A stretch of DNA of 64,000 nucleotides from Deltaproteobacteria bacterium (GTDB taxonomy: Bacteria; Desulfobacterota; Desulfuromonadia; Geobacterales; Pseudopelobacteraceae), in assembly GCA_021850095.1 (NCBI GenBank), contig JAJZRX010000002.1, positions 1-64,000 on the forward strand. The letters run 5' to 3'. Shown here in pieces: positions 26,121 through 46,212 of the stretch. Position 1 is the first letter of the stretch; each line of letters begins with the position of its first letter. The notes below the pieces were generated by a model. That model did not search any database, was not told the DNA's origin, and saw nothing but the letters and a program-made list of their open reading frames with translations. Made by a program: the position numbers and the translations under genes.

Positions 26121-26745
26121 GTGCGACTTGCTAAGTCGTGCAACTGATTGTTTTCCTTGTATCTACAAGAGAAAACCTGTTGTCCCATCAACAGTAACCT
26201 ACTGATACATGCGCAGACGGTAACGACTGGGTATGAAGCTATCGGGACAATGTACCCCGCCTACAGGCAGGCCCTCGCCGTGAGGAAGAGGCCGATATCT
26301 GCTAGTGTCATGCGGATTGGGGGCTAGGTTGAATGGTATGGTTAACAAATGTGAACCGCTGATAAACACCGTGAAGTCTGAACAAGCCAAAGACACTGTC
26401 AGGCTTGAGCCAAAATGGCAACGTAGCTGGATGCGTCTTTGTTGTATAGGCGCACATGGGCAATCAAAGCTACCGGTGGATAGGCGGAACCTAACCCATT
26501 CTGTCAATTGCATGAAACAAGGTAAGCCCGTATCTCTCCTGTGTCCACACGAACAGGTAAGCCAATCGTAAGTGAGGCTGAATGGGGTGCGGGTAGAGGA
26601 TGTCGGAAAAAGCGAATGCCGGGCTGTAATGGCAAGGATAGGGATTGAGCTAATGGCAACATTATCCCACGGGAAACCGGGCAGACTTCCGACGGGTCTT
26701 TCAACGCGAGAACATTTTCAGAACCTCTTGAAAGGAGGAAAGCAA

Positions 26746-28440
26746 ATGGAAGTTTCAACCGATGCCACCAATGCGAAAACTTGTGCACCTCCTACGGATG
26801 TGAATTGGCACCAGATAAACTGGTCAAAAGCTCACTCAACCGTTAGGAGGCTGCAAACCCGTATCGCGAAGGCAACCAAGGAAGGCCGATGGGGGAAAGT
26901 GAAAGCTCTCCAGCATCTGCTGACCCACTCGTTCAGCGGCAAAGTATTAGCCGTCAAGCGGGTGACTGAAAATCAAGGTAAAAGGACGCCGGGAGTTGAT
27001 AAAGAAACATGGTCAACACCGGAAACCAAATCAGAGGCCGTAAAGTCTCTCAGACAACGTGGATATAACCCGTTACCACTGAGACGGATTCACATCCCGA
27101 AAGCAAACGGCAAGAAACGCCCTCTCGGAATCCCGACGATGAAGGATAGAGCCATGCAAGCATTATATCTGCTGGCGCTTGAACCAATCGCCGAGACCAA
27201 AGCTGACAAGAATTCATATGGATTCAGACCAGAACGGTCATGTGCCGATGCAATCGAAGCCTGCTTCACAGCATTGGGCCAGAAAGCTTGCGCACAATGG
27301 GTACTCGAAGGCGATATTAAAGGATGCTTTGACAACATTAGTCATGAATGGATGATCGGCAATATCCCTATGGACAAAACGATTCTCCGTAAATGGCTAA
27401 AGGCCGGATTCATTGAGCACAACACCCTCTTTCCTACGGATGCCGGAACACCACAGGGAGGTATCATTTCCCCGGTTCTGGCAAACATGACCCTTGACGG
27501 ACTGGAAAAACTGATCGAAGCACACTTCCCTTTCAGGCCGAAGAAAAACAACAAAATCAATGTGGTCCGATATGCTGACGACTTCATAATCACTGGGAAA
27601 TCGAAAGAGATTCTGGAAAAAGAAGTCAAACCGCTTGTGGAGGAATTCCTGGCCATAAGAGGATTGGTACTCTCGGAAGAGAAAACCAAAATCACGCATA
27701 TTGAGGAAGGCTTCGATTTCCTGGGGCAGAATGTCAGGAAATACGACGGCAAGCTGTTGATCAAACCGTCGAAGAAGAATGTCCATAAATTCCTTGAGGA
27801 CATCAGGGAAACAATCAAAGGGAACAAGACAATAGCGCAAGCAGGCTTGATAGCAAAACTCAACCCAAAAATCAGGGGGTGGGCCAACTATCATAAAGGC
27901 GCTGTTGCCAAAAAGACCTTTCACTCGGTGGATCATCAGATTTGGAAAAACCTGTGGCGGTGGGTACGGCGCAGACATCCGAACAAGAGTCCCACATGGA
28001 TTAAGGAAAAGTACTTTAGTCGTGTTGGGGATCGAAATTGGGTGTTCAATTGTAAGAACGGAGAATTCCAGCTTACAACTGCGAGTTCAGTTCCTATCAA
28101 ACGCCATGTGAAGATTAAAGGAGAAGCAAATCCATTCGATCTCGAATGGGAAACCTATTTTGAACACCGATCTGGCTTCAAAATGGCGAATTCCATGACG
28201 GGGAGAAAGCAACTCCGGGCACTCTGGAGAAGCCAAAACGGCATATGCCCGATATGCAACCAGAAGATAACCGTGGAAACAGGGTGGGCAAACCATCACA
28301 TACTATGGAAATCCAAAGGCGGCATGGACGGTAACTCCAACAGAGTACTTCTTCACACGAACTGCCACAACAAAGTCCATAACCAAAAATTGGATGTAAG
28401 GAAACCGGTTCCTGTGAAAAGGAACTTACGAAAGGCTTGA
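26746..28440 (+). CDS. ltrA: group II intron reverse transcriptase/maturase with HNH nuclease
   Basis: A 564-aa protein. The reverse transcriptase domain (about residues 75-330) has GVDKETW, IPKANGKKRPLGIPT, GDIKGCFDNI, the catalytic VVRYADDFII and GTPQGG. The maturase (X) region is about 345-450 (KIRGWANYHKG), and a C-terminal HNH endonuclease has CPICN, WANHHILWKSKGG and LHTNCHNKVH. It helps the intron RNA splice and inserts it into new DNA sites. Start taken at 26746, after AAAGGAGGAAAG; a longer open frame upstream lies in structured intron RNA. Confidence 0.95.
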   Translation: MEVSTDATNAKTCAPPTDVNWHQINWSKAHSTVRRLQTRIAKATKEGRWGKVKALQHLLTHSFSGKVLAVKRVTENQGKRTPGVDKETWSTPETKSEAVKSLRQRGYNPLPLRRIHIPKANGKKRPLGIPTMKDRAMQALYLLALEPIAETKADKNSYGFRPERSCADAIEACFTALGQKACAQWVLEGDIKGCFDNISHEWMIGNIPMDKTILRKWLKAGFIEHNTLFPTDAGTPQGGIISPVLANMTLDGLEKLIEAHFPFRPKKNNKINVVRYADDFIITGKSKEILEKEVKPLVEEFLAIRGLVLSEEKTKITHIEEGFDFLGQNVRKYDGKLLIKPSKKNVHKFLEDIRETIKGNKTIAQAGLIAKLNPKIRGWANYHKGAVAKKTFHSVDHQIWKNLWRWVRRRHPNKSPTWIKEKYFSRVGDRNWVFNCKNGEFQLTTASSVPIKRHVKIKGEANPFDLEWETYFEHRSGFKMANSMTGRKQLRALWRSQNGICPICNQKITVETGWANHHILWKSKGGMDGNSNRVLLHTNCHNKVHNQKLDVRKPVPVKRNLRKA

Positions 28441-33502: not shown

Positions 33503-34339
33503 TCAGGCAGCCTGCTTCAGTTTTTCGAGTCCTTGGAAATAAGCCTCATCCGGAGTCCGCTTGTCAAGTGACGAATGTTTCCGTTTCTCGTTGTAATGGG
33601 TAAACCAGATTGCCAGGTCTTTAAAAAGCTCAGCTCCGGTTTCGTATGCCTTCAGGTAGATTCTCTCGTATTTCAGGCTGCGCCAGAGTCGTTCGATGAA
33701 GATGTTGTCCTTGAACCGCCCTTTGCCGTCCATGCTGATCCTGATGTTCCAGGTCTTGAGGACGGAGGTGAAGGCTTCGCTGGTAAACTGGCATCCCTGG
33801 TCGGTGTTGAAGATCTCCGGAGCACCGTATTTGAACAATGCCTCTTTCAGTGCTTCGACACAAAATCGGGTATCCAGCGTGTTGGACAACCGCCAGGACA
33901 GCACCCGTCTGGTGGCCCAGTCCATGATCGCTATCAGGTACATGTGCCCCCGTGCCATGGGGAGGTAGGTTATGTCGGTTGCCCAGACCTGATTGGGTCT
34001 GTCGATGGTCATTCCCCGCAGCAGGTAGGGATAGACCGGATGTTTCGGCTGTCGCTTGCTGGTGCCGGGCTTGGGAGCTAGGGACTCGATGCGCATGACC
34101 TGCATCAGGCGGCGCATACGATCTCTCCCCACAGGGGCTTCAGGCGTCGTGAGATGATTGACAAGGGAGCGACTGCCCATCCAGGGATGCTCCATGTAAA
34201 GTTCGTCGATTCTACGCATCAGTTCCAGATCACCGGAACGCAATCCTGAAGCTGGTCCACGGTAATAACTGGCACGTGGCAGGCCCAGAATCTGGCAGCG
34301 ACGTTCAACAGAAACTTCAGGATGCCCGCTGGCGATCAC
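33503..34339 (-). CDS. IS3-family transposase OrfB (DDE integrase)
   Basis: A 278-aa protein with an HTH_21-like N-terminal part (RRIDELYMEHPWMGSRSL) and an rve integrase core with the DDE triad: VWATDITYLPM (first Asp), FNTDQGCQF (second Asp) and RLWRSLKYE with the Glu-bearing helix after FIERLWR. The end motif YNEKRKHSSLDKRTPDEAYF is typical of IS3. It overlaps OrfA by four bases, allowing the usual frameshifted fusion or coupled translation. Confidence 0.95.
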   Translation of the reverse strand: MIASGHPEVSVERRCQILGLPRASYYRGPASGLRSGDLELMRRIDELYMEHPWMGSRSLVNHLTTPEAPVGRDRMRRLMQVMRIESLAPKPGTSKRQPKHPVYPYLLRGMTIDRPNQVWATDITYLPMARGHMYLIAIMDWATRRVLSWRLSNTLDTRFCVEALKEALFKYGAPEIFNTDQGCQFTSEAFTSVLKTWNIRISMDGKGRFKDNIFIERLWRSLKYERIYLKAYETGAELFKDLAIWFTHYNEKRKHSSLDKRTPDEAYFQGLEKLKQAA

Positions 34340-34644
34340 TTGTTGTTTTTGCGCCCGGTCAAGTTCAGTCCGGGCAAATGCGACAAAAAATCATTCTCAA
34401 CCTTGAGTTTGCCGATCATGCGGTGAAGTTCAGCCACTTCGGCTTCATGATTGACTTCTTTCTTTTTACCTTTGCCAAAGAGGTCTGAAGCATTCTCGAT
34501 CAGATCCTGTTTCCAACGGGTAATCTGAGTCGGGTGAACTCGGTACTCGGTTGCAAGTTCTGCCAGGGTCTTTGACTCCGACAGGGCGGCCAAGGCTACC
34601 TTGGCCTTAAATTCTGCGCTGTGATGTGCACGATGTTGCGACAT
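34336..34644 (-). CDS. IS3-family transposase OrfA (HTH_8)
   Basis: A 102-aa protein with an HTH_Tnp_1 domain (AEFKAKVALAALSESKTLAE, EYRVHPTQITRWKQDLIENA) and a coiled-coil leucine region at the end (EVAELHRMIGKLKVENDFL). It binds the IS ends. Start at 34644 with GAAAGGAG upstream. An AAAAAC-type slip region lies near the junction with OrfB. Confidence 0.93.
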   Translation of the reverse strand: MSQHRAHHSAEFKAKVALAALSESKTLAELATEYRVHPTQITRWKQDLIENASDLFGKGKKKEVNHEAEVAELHRMIGKLKVENDFLSHLPGLNLTGRKNNK

Positions 34645-34682
34645 TGAACCACTCCTTTCAAAATAGGTCGGTTCATTGCTTA

Positions 34683-35357
34683 CACACATGTCTCAAAAAG
34701 CGCAACCACTTCATAGTTTATCCCCCATTGTCCATCATCATATCTTTCCATATACTCATACAAATGAAACGCAAGAGAGGTCCAATTATGATATCCAACA
34801 AGGTCAATTATAGGATTACAACTATTTTGCGCACACAAACACTCGTCAACAATAATGCGTGGGTATCGTGCCAGAGATGATTCAAGGTGATACGCTTTAT
34901 TGAAAGCAGGGCCAAACACTCTGTTTTTCTGTACACATACATCTCCAAATGTGAGTCCACCGCGTAGCAATACTCCATTACAGGCAAGATTTCCTTGAGC
35001 CAAAAGCAATGAGGACAATTCTCCATCAAATAAATCCATCGCACTGATATTTTCATCATTTTGATCAAGAGGCTGGATGCGAATTATAGAATCCGAAAAT
35101 TGCAGTACCATTGGTAAATTTTTTGTTTTGCTATAGGGGGCTCTTCTGAGCTCCGGCTGAGAAGAAAAGAAGCCAACTGCGTCAAGAAGGGTATTAATTT
35201 CTATTGGCCGCTTGTCAGCAATTATCTGACGGAACCCTAGAATATCGACAAATGAAACGAATGCTTTTATATACTCTGGTCCGAAATTACGAAGTGGAGT
35301 AGGCATTTTTTCCATTACTTCATCTGTTTTTGATTTCATCTTGCCTTCATATTCCAT
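34683..35357 (-). pseudogene. N-terminal part of cyclase-like gene split by IS3
   Basis: About 225 codons of a 'FVDILGF' protein (KAFVSFVDILGFRQII, LQFSDSIIRIQ, RGGLTFGDVCVQKNRVFGPA, ARYPRIIVDECL). The pattern resembles class III nucleotide-cyclase-like folds, often found in accessory and defence regions. The frame runs into the IS3 end and stops there (TAA at the IS border). The rest lies at 33184-33467. It sits 31 bases after hipA and may have been co-transcribed. Confidence 0.7.
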
Positions 35358-35388: not shown

Positions 35389-36636
35389 TCACGATAGCCT
35401 TCGCAGGGTCTTATCCGTCTGTCCTCCGATAAATTCCATCAAACGGTACAAGGCATCGCATTTATAGGGTGAAAATACTCCCTTGAAGAGCTGCAAGCGG
35501 TTGTCCTCAATCTTCTTTGAAAGATCGGCAACACGGGTCAGCACCAGCCGTGGCTTGATGCCGATCTCCTCGGCAAACTGTTCCCAATGTTTTTTCTGGA
35601 TTGAGCCTGGATCACTCTCGCCACCAACCTTCATGGCCAAGCCTTCCGCCAAACCGTAATGAGCGTAAATCCTCGTCGAAAGCAGATCGTAGAAGGGGGC
35701 CAGCATCGGTCCTTCCGGCAGCAGCAAGAGAGATATGTTCTTGCCATGTGCATCTGAGTTGCCAATCAGGTAATTGAATATAACCCAGTTCAAAAGCGAC
35801 AGCACATCCTTGCCGGACCTGATGCTGGCAGTGCGAACCTGGTTGAAGCATGCCGCCAGGGACGGCCCCCCTTCGGATTCATATTTGTATTCAGGAGGGA
35901 TATGGAGCGCCTGGCAGAAATCTTCCTGATGCAGCCGTTTGGTACCATCGCCAGCAATCACACGATCAAAGCGCTTAACGATGAATACTCGTGTTTCCCC
36001 ATGTTGATGGATGAATGATCGAGGCACATCCAGACCAACCGAGTGAGCTAGGGCCATGCAGAATGCTTCGTTCTCCACCGTGCCGTCCAGGTTCTCGATG
36101 GCTGGTTTGATGATGTAATTGGAAGGAGCTGTGCCATACCCCAGATGGAAGTGCTGCTCATCATAAAAGATCGGAAGTTTCTTCTGGGCACCGGCCAGTG
36201 AGAGCCGTATCCCTTTCTCCCCAGCCAGAAGTGGCCGCTGCGGGAGTTCGCTGATAATTGTGTTGAGTTCATCCAGTGAGAGCTGGCGATAGGAACCGGG
36301 TTCACGTTTCGGTTCTCCGGTCTCAGGATATAGTGAAACCGCACCGGCGCAATCACCGCCGATCCGCTCCAGGAGCCCATAGTCGTTATTGAGGGAAACA
36401 CCAAGATTCCGGGCAATCACGGCACGGATTTTTTCTTCAGGAAGGAGGTTGGCGAAAAAGGGATGTGACTCATCGTCGGAATAGGGGGCGGCGCGTAAGG
36501 GTAACGAGAGGGACAATGGGATTCTCGACTGCTCCAGCCAATCCTTGTCGTACTGGAAACAGAAGTGCTTCTTCTCATCCAACCAGAGCCGCCCCACGAC
36601 ATCTTCATCTATCCTGACAAGCAGACCGATAGTCAT
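35389..36636 (-). CDS. hipA: HipA-family serine/threonine kinase toxin
   Basis: A 415-aa HipA-type kinase. It has the N-terminal HipA_N region (SLSLPLRAAPYSDDESHPFF), the nucleotide loop SLAGAQKKLP, FIVKRFDRV, the catalytic IGNSDAHGKNISLLL and the metal motif PFYDLLSTRIY. HipA kinases phosphorylate aminoacyl-tRNA synthetases and stop growth; the adjacent HTH protein neutralises them. Start at 36636 follows GGAGACG and overlaps hipB by ATGA. Confidence 0.93.
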   Translation of the reverse strand: MTIGLLVRIDEDVVGRLWLDEKKHFCFQYDKDWLEQSRIPLSLSLPLRAAPYSDDESHPFFANLLPEEKIRAVIARNLGVSLNNDYGLLERIGGDCAGAVSLYPETGEPKREPGSYRQLSLDELNTIISELPQRPLLAGEKGIRLSLAGAQKKLPIFYDEQHFHLGYGTAPSNYIIKPAIENLDGTVENEAFCMALAHSVGLDVPRSFIHQHGETRVFIVKRFDRVIAGDGTKRLHQEDFCQALHIPPEYKYESEGGPSLAACFNQVRTASIRSGKDVLSLLNWVIFNYLIGNSDAHGKNISLLLLPEGPMLAPFYDLLSTRIYAHYGLAEGLAMKVGGESDPGSIQKKHWEQFAEEIGIKPRLVLTRVADLSKKIEDNRLQLFKGVFSPYKCDALYRLMEFIGGQTDKTLRRLS

Positions 36637-36869
36637 GATTCGTCTCCTGGAGATGCCCACGTACGGATACTCGCATCCAGCTCGATTCCGAGGCACTTGA
36701 TAACCTGCAGTACCTTGTTCAGGCGCACGGTCTCCTTGCCGTTTTCCAGAGCAGACAGAAAGGCGTAGCTTACGCCACAGACTGCAGCCGCATCTTCCAG
36801 GGTAAGGCCATCGTCTTTACGTTTCTGTTTGATGATCCTGCCAATGTCTATCGCACACGAAATCTTCAT
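36633..36869 (-). CDS. hipB: HipB-family antitoxin (HTH_3/XRE)
   Basis: A 78-aa protein with an XRE helix-turn-helix (IGRIIKQKRKDDGLTLEDAA, VSYAFLSALENGKETVRLN). It should bind HipA and repress the operon. Start at 36869 (ATG); the longer TTG frame is rejected. The region 36870-37180 upstream holds an operator-like palindrome but no supported gene. Confidence 0.88.
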   Translation of the reverse strand: MKISCAIDIGRIIKQKRKDDGLTLEDAAAVCGVSYAFLSALENGKETVRLNKVLQVIKCLGIELDASIRTWASPGDES

Positions 36870-37378: not shown

Positions 37379-38248
37379 TTATCCTTCGGTCATAATTCGG
37401 CCCGCCACATCCTGAAAGAAATCGTGCGACCAGAGGGCAAGCATCTGCTGATCCTTGACAAAGGGGGCCACATCTTTACGAGCCTGATTCACATCCAGCC
37501 GGTCGATTGCCTCGAACAATAAATCAGCGAAAACTACCGGTGAAAGATTTTTATCACCACTCCAGTGGCCGGTTTGGCGCATCCGTTGTTCAAGGTGAGC
37601 CAGGTTCAGACGCGGATGATTGGCTGCATACCAGACTAAATCGTACCAATCACGACCCTTGACCCGGTTCTTCCACTTGCGGAAGAGGATTGCATGCATC
37701 TTGCCGGCGAAAAGATCCGGAAGTGAGTAACTCCGAACGGCAAATGGTATCGGCTGCAGCAGATAGCGGGTCTGAGTGGAAAATCCCGGGGGCGGGTCAG
37801 TGTCCACTTCGATCTTAACCTTCAGTACCTGTCCGGCTGCAACCTGACCGGTAAGTTCTTCACCGGCTTCAATGACCAGAAGTTCATTACGGGTGTTTGC
37901 CTTGAGGAAGGCAGACTGCACTGCGGATTCCACCGCTTTGTCGACCATCTCCACCCGGACATTGAAACCGAATGCCTGCAGTTCCTCCTCAAGTGATGCC
38001 GTGTACCGCGCCAAGTTAAAGTCTGGGGATGGTGTCAGCAGCGAGAAATCCAGATCCTCGGAGAACCGGTCGAGCCCGTACAGGATGCGCAGGGCCGTAC
38101 CGCCGTAGAACGCGGCGTGCTCGAAAAACTTAGCCCGCCAGAGTCCGAGCAGCGCCACTTCCTGTATAATTTCCCGTAGCGCTCTGACTGAATCGTCAAC
38201 GCTCCTGGGTTCATACTTGGCAAGCATGCGGGTCACGGCCTCATGCAT
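37379..38248 (-). CDS. abiEii: AbiEii/AbiGii-family nucleotidyltransferase toxin
   Basis: A 289-aa protein of the type IV toxin AbiEii group. The nucleotidyltransferase signature is GGTALRILYGLDRFSEDLDF (GG-x..DxD). AbiEii toxins add nucleotides to tRNA acceptor ends and give abortive infection. The start overlaps the upstream antitoxin stop by one base (TAATG), so the pair is co-translated. Confidence 0.93.
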   Translation of the reverse strand: MHEAVTRMLAKYEPRSVDDSVRALREIIQEVALLGLWRAKFFEHAAFYGGTALRILYGLDRFSEDLDFSLLTPSPDFNLARYTASLEEELQAFGFNVRVEMVDKAVESAVQSAFLKANTRNELLVIEAGEELTGQVAAGQVLKVKIEVDTDPPPGFSTQTRYLLQPIPFAVRSYSLPDLFAGKMHAILFRKWKNRVKGRDWYDLVWYAANHPRLNLAHLEQRMRQTGHWSGDKNLSPVVFADLLFEAIDRLDVNQARKDVAPFVKDQQMLALWSHDFFQDVAGRIMTEG

Positions 38249-38898
38249 TATCGTGCTCCTTTACTCAGGCGGGTAATCAGATCGGCCAGCAGCTTCACTC
38301 TGCGGGATCGGTAGTGCCGGGCAATTTCCATAATTCTTGTTGGATCGAGTTCATTGAGATTGGCAGGATCAATGCGGATATCATCCAGCAAATATTCATG
38401 TAATTCCTTCTGAGTTGTGATACCGGCACCCCGGTCGGCAACGATCCGGTCTGCCAGGGCTTTTTCCGGAATGGCGATCAGAAAGGAACGGCCATCATCC
38501 AGTTCAACCTGGTCCATACCGGTACGGAATGCTTCCATTGGGATCATGCGATAGGAAAACGTCCCGACCGGCGTGTCGAACGTCCGGGAACGGCCACTGG
38601 TTACTGACGTTACTGTCTCAACCCGTTCGGGTGTCAGGCCATGATAGTGCAGCGCGTATTCGAGGGAAACATAGGACGGACCATAGATGAGGTTTGCAAG
38701 CAGTTCCCGACAGAATGGCCTCCGTCGCAATGACTCGCCGAGGATATAGAGTCCCTTCTTGACGCGGACTATATCACCTTTGGCCAGCATGCCGGAAATT
38801 TTCATCCGTGGCTGTGCATATCCGTGGACAGAATCCAGCAGCGTCTGGTAGTCAAACTCCTCGTAGGGAATGCTTTTGATCAGCAGGCTGTTAGTCAT
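38248..38898 (-). CDS. abiEi: AbiEi-family antitoxin/repressor
   Basis: A 216-aa protein of the AbiEi antitoxin type. An N-terminal winged helix (GYAQPRMKISGMLAKGDI, VRVKKGLYILGESLRRRPF) binds DNA; the C-terminal part counters the toxin. In this family the antitoxin represses its own promoter at inverted repeats. A long palindrome lies just upstream (38941-38977). Start at 38898 follows GGGAG. Confidence 0.9.
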   Translation of the reverse strand: MTNSLLIKSIPYEEFDYQTLLDSVHGYAQPRMKISGMLAKGDIVRVKKGLYILGESLRRRPFCRELLANLIYGPSYVSLEYALHYHGLTPERVETVTSVTSGRSRTFDTPVGTFSYRMIPMEAFRTGMDQVELDDGRSFLIAIPEKALADRIVADRGAGITTQKELHEYLLDDIRIDPANLNELDPTRIMEIARHYRSRRVKLLADLITRLSKGAR

Positions 38899-38940
38899 GA
38901 TCACCATCTCCCGAGTGATGGTCATAATTTAGCAGATAGT

Positions 38941-38977: not shown

Positions 38978-39122
38978 CAATGATAATGATTTTAAGTAAG
39001 GGGAATTTCGCTGTTACAAAATCGGCATAATTTCGGGTCTGAAGGGAACATGCAGGTACGCTTGGCCATCATCTGTCATGGACAAGATAAACCCCATATA
39101 CATCTTGGAACTTGCGCATACT

Positions 39123-40247
39123 CTATACCTTTGCTGTTAAGATTTTGTCGTAGACACTACAAATGGTAGCCACAATCGTCTCAACCTCATCCAAATTGTT
39201 ATATCTACCATATGAAATACGTATAGCTGATTTTGCTTGCTGTTCGGTTAATCCTAGTGCCATCAGCACATGTGAAGGTTTATCCTTTCCCGATGTGCAA
39301 GCTGAACTTGTAGACACGAAGATTCCCTTTAAGTTCAGCAAATGCATAAGCGATTCGCCTGTGACACCATCGAAGACGATGTTTACAATTCCAGGCAGGT
39401 GATTATTCTCATCACCATTTATAACAATACTCGGTATTTTAGCGCGTATCCCGCATATCGTCGCTTGAACAAATGCCGATAGCTTAGTTGCCATTGCGGT
39501 CATATCATTTACGCTTTCACTAATGGCGTATCCCGCTGCCACTATTCCCGCAACATTCTCAGTTCCAGCACGAGCTCCGCGCTCCTGTTCCCCGCCAAAT
39601 ATCAGAGGAGGCAATGAAACACCATTCCGTTTGTAGAGAATACCAGTTCCTTTTGCCCCATTGAATTTATGGCTGGATGCAGTTAATAAATCTACACCGA
39701 GTTCCTTAACATTGACTGGTATTTTTCCGACTGCCTGAACTGCATCTGTGTGAAACAGAATACCGCGTTCACGTAGATATTCCCCAATTTCATCTATTGG
39801 TTGAATTGTCCCGATTTCATTGTTTGCGAGCATAATAGAAACGAGTTCAGTGTCGGAGCGAATGGCTTCTTTTATGCTGTCTAACGAAACGCGACCCTTG
39901 CAATCAACTGGAAGGTAAGTCACATCTATACCTTTACGCTCAAGCGAATGGCATGCGTCTAACACAGAGTAATGTTCGATTGAAGAGGTAATTATATGTC
40001 CATTACTCACGGAAGACAGCACCCAGCTATTACTCTCAGAGCCTCCTGAAGTAAACACGATTTCTGAAGACTCTGCGCCGATAGCCATGGCAACCTGTTG
40101 GCGAGCTTGTTCAACGGCACATTTTGCGCTTATTCCGAGTGAATATTGACTGGAGGCGTTGCCGTATTGCTCCTGCAAAAAAGGAAGCATTTTCTCTAAG
40201 ACGGTGGCCGATATTTTTGTGGTTGCGGCATTATCGGCATAAATCAA
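39123..40247 (-). CDS. cysteine desulfurase (NifS/DndA-like)
   Basis: A 374-aa PLP enzyme that takes sulfur from cysteine. The PLP Lys is in SSHKFNGAKGTG and the catalytic Cys in STSSACTSGKDKPS. The N-terminus MIYADNAATTKIS is typical of the class. It follows a small zinc protein by 63 bases and AAGGAGG is its ribosome site. By neighbours (brxL, pglZ) it may feed sulfur to DNA, as DndA does in phosphorothioate systems; a housekeeping role cannot be excluded. Confidence 0.92.
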   Translation of the reverse strand: MIYADNAATTKISATVLEKMLPFLQEQYGNASSQYSLGISAKCAVEQARQQVAMAIGAESSEIVFTSGGSESNSWVLSSVSNGHIITSSIEHYSVLDACHSLERKGIDVTYLPVDCKGRVSLDSIKEAIRSDTELVSIMLANNEIGTIQPIDEIGEYLRERGILFHTDAVQAVGKIPVNVKELGVDLLTASSHKFNGAKGTGILYKRNGVSLPPLIFGGEQERGARAGTENVAGIVAAGYAISESVNDMTAMATKLSAFVQATICGIRAKIPSIVINGDENNHLPGIVNIVFDGVTGESLMHLLNLKGIFVSTSSACTSGKDKPSHVLMALGLTEQQAKSAIRISYGRYNNLDEVETIVATICSVYDKILTAKV

Positions 40248-40310
40248 AGTATCGCCTCCTTAAAAAAATATACAGCCATCCCTTTAAGCTCTTTATTATC
40301 AACCTTTTCC

Positions 40311-40520
40311 TCATCCGAACAAGTCACAGCCTTCAAACTTAAACCCCTCGATCATTATTTTCAGATCTTCTTCCGTCGTTTCGAAATATGCGGCTAAACA
40401 CGTCAGGCACATCATCCGCTCAATCTGCCGATGGATGAGTTTCTTGTTGAGTCCAATCTCATTCTTGGAAAGCTTCTCTTTGTCACAATAGGCACAATTG
40501 ATTTGCTTTCTTCTGCTCAT
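40311..40520 (-). CDS. small Cys4 zinc-binding protein
   Basis: A 69-aa protein with CAYC near the start and CLTC in the middle (C-x2-C ... C-x2-C), suggesting one structural zinc. LNKKLIHRQIERMMC and DLKIMIEGFKFEGCDLF follow. Similar small proteins occur next to sulfur-transfer genes, in my recollection. It overlaps the brxL stop by four bases (ATGA), so it belongs to the pglZ-brxL-desulfurase operon. Confidence 0.7.
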   Translation of the reverse strand: MSRRKQINCAYCDKEKLSKNEIGLNKKLIHRQIERMMCLTCLAAYFETTEEDLKIMIEGFKFEGCDLFG

Positions 40521-41974
40521 TGATCAACCTCGCGCAACGTGTAAGCGGCTACGTTCTTCCCTCCGAATTCAAGCGGGTCAATCATCTGCAACTGTTGCCG
40601 AATCACCGTGCGCATCTGCACGGCGGGACGTAAACAGTATCGTTTGAACTCTCCCTTGTCGATTCCGCTTGGCGCTGTGACGTGCGGAAACAGCAGTTTA
40701 AGGTAGGCCGTGCACAACCGTAAAACCGCTTCCGTGTCGCGGGTATCCGCCCCGGAAGGATAGTCTACCAGTCTTTCTACGACATGCCGATAAATCATTG
40801 TTTCTGACGGTTGGCGCAGCAGATGCATTATTTCGGAAAAATACTCCGTGTTCAGAGCCCAACCATTAATTTTCAGGTTCTCATTCATACGCGGGATGTC
40901 GCGTCCCCGGATAAAACCATGAAACCGGTCCAACAATGCTGACTCGTGAAACACTTGCGGCAGCCTCTGGAACATGTCTTTGGTTTCGTCCATTTCTGTT
41001 TGCGGGATGTTCCCCAGCAGGATGACTCCGGCACCGCCAATGATACGGTTTTTGCCGACTGTGATTTCCCCACTTTCCATGTAGGCTTTTAGCCCGCCTT
41101 GCATCTCACTCGGATCAGGAAAGTTGATCGACTGGATTTCGTCTAGCGCTACAAAGTCATTCGATGCGATCAGACCGGGGCTCTTCCCATTGATATCGCC
41201 GAACATCTTCGCTCGCGTCAGCGTCCCCCCGCTGACCAGCCAGCCGTATTTCCCTACTCGTCCGAACATATATGACTTACCTGTCCCCTTGGGTGCCAGC
41301 TCAATCAAGTTTAGGCGCGGTTCGATGAACGGCAGCAGGCGCGTCAGTACCGTATGCTTCTGTACCCAGTCCTCGTAACCCTCAGGGTTGTAGTCGATTG
41401 CTCCCAACACAACGTCGATCCATTCATCGGTTGTAAACTGGCAGCGTGCCTCTCTATAGGCGTCCAGATCTATCGTGTACGGGCAGAAATTCTTGTACTC
41501 TAAGAGCGTGAAACATCCACGCGAATTCTCTTCGTCCGGGCTCCGGTACCCAAGTTGTACCAGTCCCCAGCCACCAGCAGTTTTTACGACATCATCTTTG
41601 ATCCGGTTCCAAACATAATCCTCAATCAGTGTTTCAGTATGCCCCAGACCCAAATCCGGAATCGCAAACGTGTACTCGTTGGATCGAACGAGAAATTGGA
41701 TTTCTATCTTAGCCAGAAATTTTTTCGTGTTCCCCTCACTACGCGCTGCGTCCTTCAATTCCAGCAAATTCTCCCGTCGCGGGATAATTTCGTAAATGTA
41801 TTTTCTCAAAGCCTCGGCATCGTGGATTCTACCGTCCGATTCCGCCTTGCGTTTCAAAATCCAGTCCCGCAAAAAAGACGGAATCGATGCCGCTTTGAAG
41901 ATCGCCACGATGTTCGGGGCCTTGAAGACCGTCGTGTCGGGAAATGCCGTCCGTAATTTTTCAGTATCGACCAT
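40517..41974 (-). CDS. brxL: BrxL-family AAA+ protein (BREX type 4 form)
   Basis: A 485-aa protein. The AAA core has Walker A ELAPKGTGKSYMF, Walker B-like FVALDEIQSINF, and LLDRFHGFIRGRDIPRM, matching the BrxL/TIGR02688-like family. The longer type 1 BrxL (about 680 aa) has a Lon-like C-terminal domain; the short form here fits type 4. BrxL takes part in phage defence and forms DNA-binding rings. It begins 21 bases after pglZ. Confidence 0.85.
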   Translation of the reverse strand: MVDTEKLRTAFPDTTVFKAPNIVAIFKAASIPSFLRDWILKRKAESDGRIHDAEALRKYIYEIIPRRENLLELKDAARSEGNTKKFLAKIEIQFLVRSNEYTFAIPDLGLGHTETLIEDYVWNRIKDDVVKTAGGWGLVQLGYRSPDEENSRGCFTLLEYKNFCPYTIDLDAYREARCQFTTDEWIDVVLGAIDYNPEGYEDWVQKHTVLTRLLPFIEPRLNLIELAPKGTGKSYMFGRVGKYGWLVSGGTLTRAKMFGDINGKSPGLIASNDFVALDEIQSINFPDPSEMQGGLKAYMESGEITVGKNRIIGGAGVILLGNIPQTEMDETKDMFQRLPQVFHESALLDRFHGFIRGRDIPRMNENLKINGWALNTEYFSEIMHLLRQPSETMIYRHVVERLVDYPSGADTRDTEAVLRLCTAYLKLLFPHVTAPSGIDKGEFKRYCLRPAVQMRTVIRQQLQMIDPLEFGGKNVAAYTLREVDQ

Positions 41975-41995
41975 GTTTGATTGCCCTCGTTGATA

Positions 41996-44026
41996 CTACA
42001 AATCGAAATCGTCTGTCTCTACAATCTGCGCCCGTTTGCCATCAGTCTTTGCCTTTGTCACGAACTGCCCCGTTTGCGAGAAAATAACAACCGGTACCAG
42101 CCGCTCTTCCAGCGTCGCACCGCCGTGTAGCTCAAAGCCCTGTCCGCCGCCCCTCTTGGGCAGTCGGTCATACCCGCGCATCACCCAATACCTGCCATCC
42201 AAAGTTTCTTCCAGTTCCGGTGGACATTCACCTTGTGTCGACCGCTCTCGGTAGCGCCAATCGGCGACTTCCGCGCCAGCCTCACATGGAAGCGTCCGCG
42301 CCAGCCTCGGTTCGGCCTGCCATGCCAACACCGCTAGTCTAGAACTCCCGTGGTCTGCTGTGACAAGCACCCGCTCAAATCGCGTCAGCCCCACCGCCAC
42401 GCGCGGCAAAACATCGCTGCCGATCACATCCAGCGCCGCAGCCAGACTTTCCTCCACGCACCGGGCCTCGTGCGCTTCCGCTCCATTGTGCGCGATGTTG
42501 TCAAAGCGCTTAATGTCTGGCAACCGCCGAGTGACATCTGGCCAATGGATGCTGTTGAATATCGTCGATGTCGGCAATTGCGCCACGCCGACCGCAATCG
42601 AATCCACGCCTATATTCCGTTGTCGCGCCAGTGCTACCAACATCGGCAGCCACTCCGCGCCCATCGCATCAACCACCAGTAACGCACACCTGTTGTCCGA
42701 GGCATATCGTTGCACCATTGCATCCCGCGATTGCACCGAACTCGGAGGGACAGCCCGCAGTGCCTTCTCGTAAAACTCAGGCGTCACGCGGCCAGCCATT
42801 TTCAGTTCACGGTATTCCATGAAATATTCTTCCAGCGCCACGTCGCCAAAAACAAAATTGGCATTCAGATACATTTCCGCTTCTGGGTACACCTCTTTTA
42901 TGACGTTTGACACAATGCTATCTACCGAACAGCGCCGCAGTAATTCCGCCCGCTCCGCGTCCGTCCTGCAATTCAACCAAGGAGCAACCCGCGATGTGGA
43001 TTCGACCGCACAACGCGCAATGAATTGCCGGATGTCCGCGTCGGACCTGCTAACGTCAGCTTCCCGTATAGCATCCCTGCGTTCACCAGCATGTGCTAAC
43101 GATTCATCCAGCCATTCCACAGCTCCTGTTACGTATGCGGAGCGGAAGTTGCCGACATAAACCCCCTCTTGTCTTACGACACACTCAAGGTAACTGCCCT
43201 TGTATGCGACGTGTTTTACCAGCCACAGTACCGCCTCACGTTCCGCACCTCTGCGCTCGTCAAAAACACGTAAGACGCACTTTGTGACTGCACTTTCCGA
43301 AAAAAACAACGCCTTGAGCGTTTCCGACAGCGTTTTCCCCGTACCTTCTTTACCCCGCTCGCAAATCCACCGCAAGGCATCTTCGGACAATCCCGAATCT
43401 TCCACGCCGTAAAAAACGTGAGCGAATTCCCGCAGACATACCACCTGTCTCACCTCGGCGCTTAGCCCCGCCAATTCTCGCCCTTCCGAGGTAACCACAA
43501 TTCGCCGGACAAAGCTGTCACTCGGATGTTCTTCGGTATATCGCAAATACTTCTGAAATGTGTCGCACGCTTCCGGGATGAATGATGCCAAATTGTCCCC
43601 GACCAGCATCACTTCCGTACGCCCAGCAAACTGTGGTACAACATCTCCATAAATTTCAATCAGTTGCTTCCCTTGGCGGTAGCGCGGATTGGCGAAAACA
43701 TTCTTTAGTATCAAATCCGTGCCGTCATCGCTCCGCAAAAAGCAGACCGCATCCCGTTCTGACGTACCGTCTACCCATTCGCGTAAAGCGACAATCGCGG
43801 CCAGCTTATTCTCGTCCGTTAACAACGCAAGATAGCCAGGCAGCCCCAGTAATACCAACGCATTACCGCTTCTCTCCTGTGCCGACATCGCATCGCGTAC
43901 CCGACCGAAAACTTCGTCAGGCATTGGCAGCCACGCGCTCTCCCTAACAAGATCACTCAAACGCAACTCAACGTCGCCACGCTCTTGGTAGAACCTGCGC
44001 AGTGCTGTCCAATCTCCCGGAGGCAC
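41996..44026 (-). CDS. pglZ: PglZ-domain protein (BREX type 4-like), perhaps 5' truncated
   Basis: A 676-aa protein with the PglZ alkaline-phosphatase-like domain in its C-terminal half: CALLVVDAMGAEWLPMLVAL, VLVTADHGSSRLAVL, and ELHGGATLEERLVPVVIF (metal-binding Asp/His). The annotated start is GTG at 44026 without a good Shine-Dalgarno at the right distance. The frame is open upstream to about 44057 (..KARIVIV before PPGDW), so N-terminal residues may be missing. First gene of a four-gene operon; no BrxP or BrxC gene is found upstream. Confidence 0.82.
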   Translation of the reverse strand: MPPGDWTALRRFYQERGDVELRLSDLVRESAWLPMPDEVFGRVRDAMSAQERSGNALVLLGLPGYLALLTDENKLAAIVALREWVDGTSERDAVCFLRSDDGTDLILKNVFANPRYRQGKQLIEIYGDVVPQFAGRTEVMLVGDNLASFIPEACDTFQKYLRYTEEHPSDSFVRRIVVTSEGRELAGLSAEVRQVVCLREFAHVFYGVEDSGLSEDALRWICERGKEGTGKTLSETLKALFFSESAVTKCVLRVFDERRGAEREAVLWLVKHVAYKGSYLECVVRQEGVYVGNFRSAYVTGAVEWLDESLAHAGERRDAIREADVSRSDADIRQFIARCAVESTSRVAPWLNCRTDAERAELLRRCSVDSIVSNVIKEVYPEAEMYLNANFVFGDVALEEYFMEYRELKMAGRVTPEFYEKALRAVPPSSVQSRDAMVQRYASDNRCALLVVDAMGAEWLPMLVALARQRNIGVDSIAVGVAQLPTSTIFNSIHWPDVTRRLPDIKRFDNIAHNGAEAHEARCVEESLAAALDVIGSDVLPRVAVGLTRFERVLVTADHGSSRLAVLAWQAEPRLARTLPCEAGAEVADWRYRERSTQGECPPELEETLDGRYWVMRGYDRLPKRGGGQGFELHGGATLEERLVPVVIFSQTGQFVTKAKTDGKRAQIVETDDFDL

Positions 44027-44059
44027 GATTACTATCCGTGCCTTCTCCTTGGGGGTATG

Positions 44060-44230
44060 TCAGATCAGCAATTGCCAGCTATCACTTCAATGGCGGTTAT
44101 GAAGCATGCCGATAAGCAGTCGAGTGATGCGAAAGCTCCGAAAAGTGCTTTCGCATCCACTCCGGACGTTGATTGCAATGATGTATTGAGCTGTATCCTT
44201 GAGTGAAACCATGTCATCATAGTGGTGAGA
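44060..44230. other. junction sequence upstream of pglZ
   Basis: Between the open pglZ frame and hipA. A plus-strand frame of 49 residues starts at 44057 (MSDQQLPAITSMAVM...), but it has no recognisable family or ribosome site. brxC and brxP, expected here in BREX type 4 loci, are absent. It looks like a breakpoint. Confidence 0.4.
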
Positions 44231-45433
44231 TCATGCTGACAAGGTATCTGTAACGCCTTCACTCCACGCGGCCAGCATCCGGCTTCCCACGTCGTGGAAC
44301 TCCGGGTGCTCCTTCAGATACTCAGACAACATCCCTCGGGTATCGGTCACTCCCTCCGCAACCTCGTCGAAGATCTGCCCGACTTTCCCCACCGGCAACG
44401 CCAGGTGCGCAATGGCAAACTTCTCCAGGACCTTCCGTGGCCACCACTTCTTGCTGCCTGCCAGAGAGAGCGCGGGTACATCCCGTTGAATGTAGGCCAC
44501 AGTTGTCACCATATCATACACCGGAGCCAACCGGACCGGTTGCCCGGGCCGCTCGTACAGAACTCCGAAATTCTTCAAATGGGCATCTCCATTCCTGATC
44601 ATGCAAGAAAGTACAAGTGAAGCGAAAAACTGTTCCCGGGCTCCCTGCAGGAACTCTCCCGATACGAAATCCTTGATCGACCGCGCCACCCGCTCATAGG
44701 TGCTGCCATATTTCTGTGCCGTGCCCACGGCCTGTATGGAGCACATATCCTCGAAGCCCAAGGATAATCCATCAGCGGCCACATCGAACCGCTTCATCAC
44801 GAACAGTCCGCCATTTTCGGAAAGGTGGAATTCCGGCACCGGCAAACCGGCCTGTTTGGCTGCGGTCATGCAGAAGAATTCATTCGCCGCCAGCTGCGGA
44901 TAGTCGGCTCCCCAGGACTTTACGATGTAACCACCAACGGCGGCGGTTCCCCGCTCCGTCGCATCCAGCATGACCTTCGGCTGCACTCCTGAAACCCCGG
45001 AACGGAGGGCATATTTCGCTATCAGGTCGTGAAACAGTTCCTCTGTGTCAGGGTAGGACAACAGCTCATCCAGCGATTCGGCAGATTCCACAATACCGGC
45101 AGACGTATCTTCCGGCAGGGAAAAGCGGTTACGCCCGATCTGGTTGCCGCCGGTGACGCGGAGAATAGTCAAATCATCTTCACCGGCGAGTTTGGCAATA
45201 GCGCGCCTGATAGCCTCAAGCAACGCTCCTTCCGGCAGGTTCATCTGGAAAACAGGGTGCAGATCCCGGCTCAGCCAGCTTTCCAAACGCACTGGCATGG
45301 TGAGCGATACCTGGGTATCCGGTGGTTCTGCGGCCTGATCGTAGGCAAAGACATACTGACGCTGGTCCAGAGAGCGGTCCAGAAGACCGGCCCGACAATC
45401 AGCGGCCCATACGGCCAAGGCATTCGCACTCAT
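44231..45433 (-). CDS. hipA: HipA-family kinase toxin (second copy)
   Basis: A 400-aa HipA-type kinase, distinct in sequence from the one at 35389. Motifs: PVFQMNLPEGALLEAI, SGVSGVQPKVML, FVMKRFDVAADG, catalytic MIRNGDAHLKNFGVLY and PVYDMVTTVAY. The GDAHLKN motif holds the catalytic Asp. The start overlaps the antitoxin stop (ATGA). Confidence 0.93.
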   Translation of the reverse strand: MSANALAVWAADCRAGLLDRSLDQRQYVFAYDQAAEPPDTQVSLTMPVRLESWLSRDLHPVFQMNLPEGALLEAIRRAIAKLAGEDDLTILRVTGGNQIGRNRFSLPEDTSAGIVESAESLDELLSYPDTEELFHDLIAKYALRSGVSGVQPKVMLDATERGTAAVGGYIVKSWGADYPQLAANEFFCMTAAKQAGLPVPEFHLSENGGLFVMKRFDVAADGLSLGFEDMCSIQAVGTAQKYGSTYERVARSIKDFVSGEFLQGAREQFFASLVLSCMIRNGDAHLKNFGVLYERPGQPVRLAPVYDMVTTVAYIQRDVPALSLAGSKKWWPRKVLEKFAIAHLALPVGKVGQIFDEVAEGVTDTRGMLSEYLKEHPEFHDVGSRMLAAWSEGVTDTLSA

Positions 45434-45669
45434 TTCTCGCCCCTCAGCTCATCCAGCGTAGGAGGTGTCCCCGCAGGTCGTACACGGAGTTCCAGATCGA
45501 GATATTCCAGTATCCTGATCAGTTTGCGGACACCGATTTCCTGAACGGTTCCCGATTCAATCAGGCTGATCGTGGCACGGCTCATCTCCAGATCCTTCGC
45601 CATCTTTTCCTGGGAGACCTTCCGGCGCTTTCGCTCATTGCGTATTTCTTCACCAATATCGAAAAGCAT
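45430..45669 (-). CDS. hipB: HipB-family antitoxin (second copy)
   Basis: A 79-aa XRE helix-turn-helix protein (IRNERKRRKVSQEKMAKDLE, MSRATISLIESGTVQEI). Paired with hipA by an ATGA overlap. No clear operator palindrome was identified in the short upstream region. Confidence 0.88.
   Translation of the reverse strand: MLFDIGEEIRNERKRRKVSQEKMAKDLEMSRATISLIESGTVQEIGVRKLIRILEYLDLELRVRPAGTPPTLDELRGEK

Positions 45670-46137: not shown

Positions 46138-46212
<75 letters not shown>

Follow-up and report, generated by a model that had tools for sequence, protein, structure and literature searches.

A cluster of four genes, encoding PglZ, BrxL, a small zinc-binding-like protein (zn) and a cysteine desulfurase (cysD), lies within the 64,000-nucleotide stretch of DNA analysed here, which we call the window. 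The cluster raises the question of whether a phage-defence operon of the BREX type has been joined to a supply of sulfur for marking DNA, and of what such a cluster could do with brxP and brxC missing beside it. We conclude that it is probably what remains of a type 4 BREX operon whose full gene order is geneA-brxP-brxC-pglZ-brxL-zn-cysD and whose front half has been lost.

A type 4 BREX cluster cut inside pglZ

The features of the locus are collected in Table 1. An earlier note on this DNA had listed the four genes with their order and close spacing, and both homology models and reading frames agree with it: pglZ and brxL are 21 bp apart, the ATG of zn overlaps the stop codon of brxL by 4 bp, and 63 bp separate zn from cysD. 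None of the four genes contains an internal stop or frameshift. BrxL matches TIGR02688 at 391 bits (cut-off 329), and in zn the cysteines C9, C12, C38 and C41 are invariant, forming two Cys pairs; a search of the PDB with the predicted model of zn (pLDDT 84) gave no significant match.

Table 1. Coordinates of the four-gene cluster and of its neighbours in the window.
Feature	Position	Strand	Remarks
5'-truncated type 4 BREX pglZ	41996–44050	−	first 15 codons and start codon missing
brxL, short form	40517–41974	−	485 aa, full length; TIGR02688
Cys4 zinc-binding-like protein (zn)	40311–40520	−	69 aa; conserved in 12 of 16 loci
Cysteine desulfurase, NifS/DndA/SspA-like (cysD)	39123–40247	−	TTG start
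Probable BREX type 4 remnant, whole	39121–44050	−	4930 bp; 97.0% identity to L001; sharp edges on both sides
Junction (scar) of truncated pglZ and truncated opposite-strand gene	44050–44051	.	
C-terminal 51 codons of a small gene	44051–44206	+	intact 104-aa relative in L039, 43% aa identity
HipB and HipA, toxin-antitoxin-like pair	45430–45669 (HipB), 44231–45433 (HipA)	−	occupy the expected brxC/brxP position
tRNA-Gly	46138–46212		near HipBA
AbiEi/AbiEii pair	37379–38925	−	downstream of the BREX remnant

The PglZ of the window is of the type 4 kind: it scores 149 bits with the NCBIfam model BREX_PglZ_4 (cut-off 140), and the PADLOC model PDLC02550 matches it at 1372 bits. The Pfam model PF08665 does not detect this protein, and thus the empty result of a whole-genome search with PF08665 is uninformative. 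A pglZ gene is therefore present, as the earlier note had it, but it is not full length, since its 5' end is cut. That is, the window protein aligns to residues 16–699 of a 699-aa protein; the PglZ of relatives begins MTLSEYCEYIRNPLA..., and the window copy opens at residue 16. There is no in-frame ATG for the gene, whose homology starts at 44050, and the first standard start left to it, a GTG at 44026, is a mechanical call only.

BREX homology covers exactly the whole interval of Table 1, with an identity of 87–88% to two further relatives, L002 and L019, and in all three relatives it ends at 44049–44050, inside pglZ. This explains why brxP and brxC, already reported as missing from the locus, are not found there. 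The small gene on the opposite strand is cut at the adjacent base, 44051; two genes cut at one base point to a junction made by deletion or recombination, or else to a misjoin. In genome G010, too, a tRNA-Gly has a HipBA homologue (87% identity at the DNA level) some 2 kb away, and thus the HipBA arm of the window looks native. The junction was found in no other genome, and within the window there is no direct repeat of the 3' end of tRNA-Gly, which would mark the end of an island; the only repeats across 30–48 kb able to drive a deletion are short and imperfect. An IS3-like transposase pair (HTH_Tnp_1 and rve, 33503–34689) is too distant to have caused the scar. Around the cluster, near tRNA-Gly, there is a group of toxin-antitoxin-like genes, comprising the AbiEi/AbiEii and HipBA pairs and a second HipA (35389–36696), and a group II intron reverse transcriptase/maturase with an HNH domain is found at 26572–28440.

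The complete operon in related genomes

We compared 16 loci: the window, L001–L013, L019 and L020. Wherever enough upstream contig is available, and with the exception of L012, the order is geneA-brxP-brxC-pglZ-brxL, usually followed by zn and sometimes by cysD. The gene products measure 386–483 aa (geneA), 784 aa (brxP), 1384 aa (brxC) and about 700 aa (pglZ). The BrxP of these relatives scores 1004 bits with the PADLOC BrxP model and carries a PAPS-reductase domain and ferredoxin-like cysteines, and their BrxC scores 2691 bits. Both genes stand directly upstream of pglZ in relatives whose PglZ is 63–96% identical to that of the window, which, together with the PglZ_4 and BrxL matches, bears out the assignment to type 4. 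While zn is widespread among the loci (Table 1), cysD occurs in six of the 16 (the window, L001, L002, L003, L011 and L019). Related loci without the desulfurase, named beforehand as evidence against a link, do therefore exist, so that this objection holds in part, in keeping with the optional status published for this gene. The zn-cysD pair of L011, a verrucomicrobial assembly, is only 43–48% identical, and thus the pair did not come about by a recent local event. Among 395 genomes sampled across the phylum, only one further close PglZ turned up, so that any frequency of truncation rests on few loci.

Two further genes accompany the operon in relatives. The conserved geneA (L002:1959–3392, L003:1965–3398, L019:5510–6670 and equivalents) overlaps brxP in most intact operons. 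It matches no Pfam family over the cut-off, and its C-terminus is HTH-like; a poor predicted model (pLDDT 61) gives a winged-helix-like N-terminal half, with weak matches. In the closest relative an AAA ATPase (AAA_15/AAA_21-like) directly follows cysD (L001:7271–8821), where the window has AbiE.

In order to see whether the missing genes lie elsewhere, as had been proposed, the 118 contigs of the genome were searched with full-length queries. BrxC and geneA gave no match in the assembled genome. The sole BrxP-like match (25% identity) adjoins a sulfate-adenylyltransferase-like (CysD-type) gene, and from gene order and sequence we read it as a CysH-like reductase rather than as BrxP. The same BrxC and BrxP queries recover their genes in four other genomes; the assembly is about 90% complete, which leaves some room for copies outside it.

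From published knowledge of these families, the intact system may be expected to work as follows. The desulfurase would draw sulfur from cysteine and hand it to BrxP, a DUF4007 protein related to PAPS reductase and DndC; BrxP, together with BrxC, would insert phosphorothioate into host DNA; PglZ and BrxL would serve phage exclusion; and zn would be an accessory, possibly regulatory, protein. In the window, a deletion or illegitimate recombination would have taken the three leading genes, geneA, brxP and brxC, along with 15 codons at the start of pglZ, and would have joined the remaining genes to the region that carries HipBA. Since the assembled genome holds neither brxP nor brxC, and since pglZ is cut at its 5' end, the window copy is probably unable to mark DNA with phosphorothioate. 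Given the missing genes, it should not confer BREX immunity either, with the desulfurase, brxL and zn left as intact frames. Thus the proposed link between BREX and phosphorothioate holds for the intact system, for which it was already in print, but probably not for the locus in which it was proposed.

Constraint on pglZ and competing explanations

Is the truncated pglZ still maintained? Polarised with L019, the changes in pglZ comprise 19 synonymous and 20 nonsynonymous on the branch leading to the window, compared with 38 and 7 on the branch leading to L001 (Fisher p = 0.0009). For the other three genes, pooled, the two branches do not differ (p = 0.56). The branch comparison thus shows relaxed constraint on pglZ in the window lineage, presuming no recombination between the sequences; between the window and L001, dS is larger in pglZ (0.12) than in brxL (0.03), a gap that allows for some mosaicism. 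The nonsynonymous fraction on the window branch (20/39) is still below the neutral one (p = 0.003–0.02), and the gene has no internal stop; therefore the loss is recent or partial, or some function is left. A second 5'-truncated copy, consisting of pglZ from residue 61, brxL and zn, is found at L012:8607–13611, with neither brxC nor brxP detected in the 10 kb upstream. Because it is cut at a different place, such losses appear to recur independently. The L012 copy lies close to a Fic-family gene, so that it has a toxin-like neighbour, as does the window copy.

These results bear on two other accounts of the locus. A chimera of assembly or binning, in which the type 4 BREX operon of the organism is in fact complete and the contig is misjoined at 44050/44051, would cut both genes at one base, just as observed; the draft genome is fragmented, moreover, and the operon can be difficult to assemble, brxC being divided between two contigs in a close relative, G032. 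Yet a misjoin predicts brxC and brxP on another contig, where none of the 118 holds them, and it must also contend with the relaxed constraint on pglZ and with the second truncated copy. We consider a chimera unlikely. It is more doubtful still that the truncated PglZ, BrxL, zn and the desulfurase act as a functional reduced module, either with partners in trans or as an orphan effector, although all frames are open, PglZ beyond its lost N-terminus differs at just two of the positions that are invariant across 13 relatives, the genes lie codirectionally behind hipBA, where they may be transcribed, and L012 has kept a similar pglZ-brxL-zn remnant. The lack of an ATG start, the genome's lack of brxC and brxP, and the raised nonsynonymous change in pglZ all speak against such a module, and the different cut in L012 is what independent decay predicts. 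We likewise put very little credence in the specific view that pglZ-brxL-zn-cysD has been kept as a working unit that dispenses with brxP and brxC, for example as an orphan PglZ/BrxL effector or as a sulfur-delivery unit for another system.

The desulfurase could, finally, be a housekeeping NifS or IscS placed behind zn by chance. It scores 340–450 bits with the DndA, SspA and NifS models, and its alignment with NifS retains the catalytic Lys loop SSHKFNG and the Cys loop SSACTSG. NifS is in fact its top-scoring NCBIfam model, but at 444 bits it remains below the cut-off of 530.75. The genome holds three further desulfurase-like genes, the nearest of which (42–43% identity) is of NifS type and follows a NifU-like gene on contig C75. 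It follows that the operon desulfurase is not the housekeeping NifS, a distinction on which the earlier interpretation depended. The zn-cysD pair stands behind brxL in five other loci, one of them verrucomicrobial, and such conserved gene order largely refutes the housekeeping reading; since the desulfurase is moreover a published component of type 4 BREX, we regard a chance placement as next to impossible. A remnant of the type 4 operon thus remains our preferred reading of the locus.

Relation to known systems

A desulfurase and a small zinc protein have been reported as components of type 4 BREX, the desulfurase being an optional one, present in 56% of 457 taxa, and geneA is not among the type 4 components named in the accessible text of that report (PMC12839542, Nucleic Acids Res. 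2026, gkag035). The family brxPCZL, i.e. BREX type 4, is also listed as one that makes phosphorothioate (PMC11931770). Thus both the association of these two genes with type 4 BREX and the phosphorothioation carried out by that system are already published, and the window locus is a truncated member of the published system. What the present genomes contribute, having been gathered independently, is support for the place of a dedicated desulfurase and zinc protein in type 4 BREX, together with a natural case of loss, in which pglZ, brxL, zn and cysD outlast, for a time, the genes for modification and motor function; apart from this, the locus would be an ordinary broken defence locus.

Phosphorothioation by brxPCZL was reportedly described in a preprint by Yuan et al., to which both PMC11931770 and PMC12839542 refer, earlier than the 2026 report. 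The intact relatives of the window locus have the same core genes, whereas the modification genes were not found in the genome assembly of the window. Compared with the Dnd and Ssp systems, the window desulfurase scores almost the same with the DndA model (452 bits) as with the SspA model (449 bits); it falls under the NCBIfam DndA equivalog cut-off (343 versus 480 bits), however, and no dnd or ssp modification genes lie beside it. With the system of PMC12839542 the window shares a type 4 PglZ, BrxL, a small zinc protein and a DndA-like desulfurase in one operon. The window copy differs in that geneA, brxP, brxC and the beginning of pglZ are missing, while its intact relatives have brxP and brxC as well.
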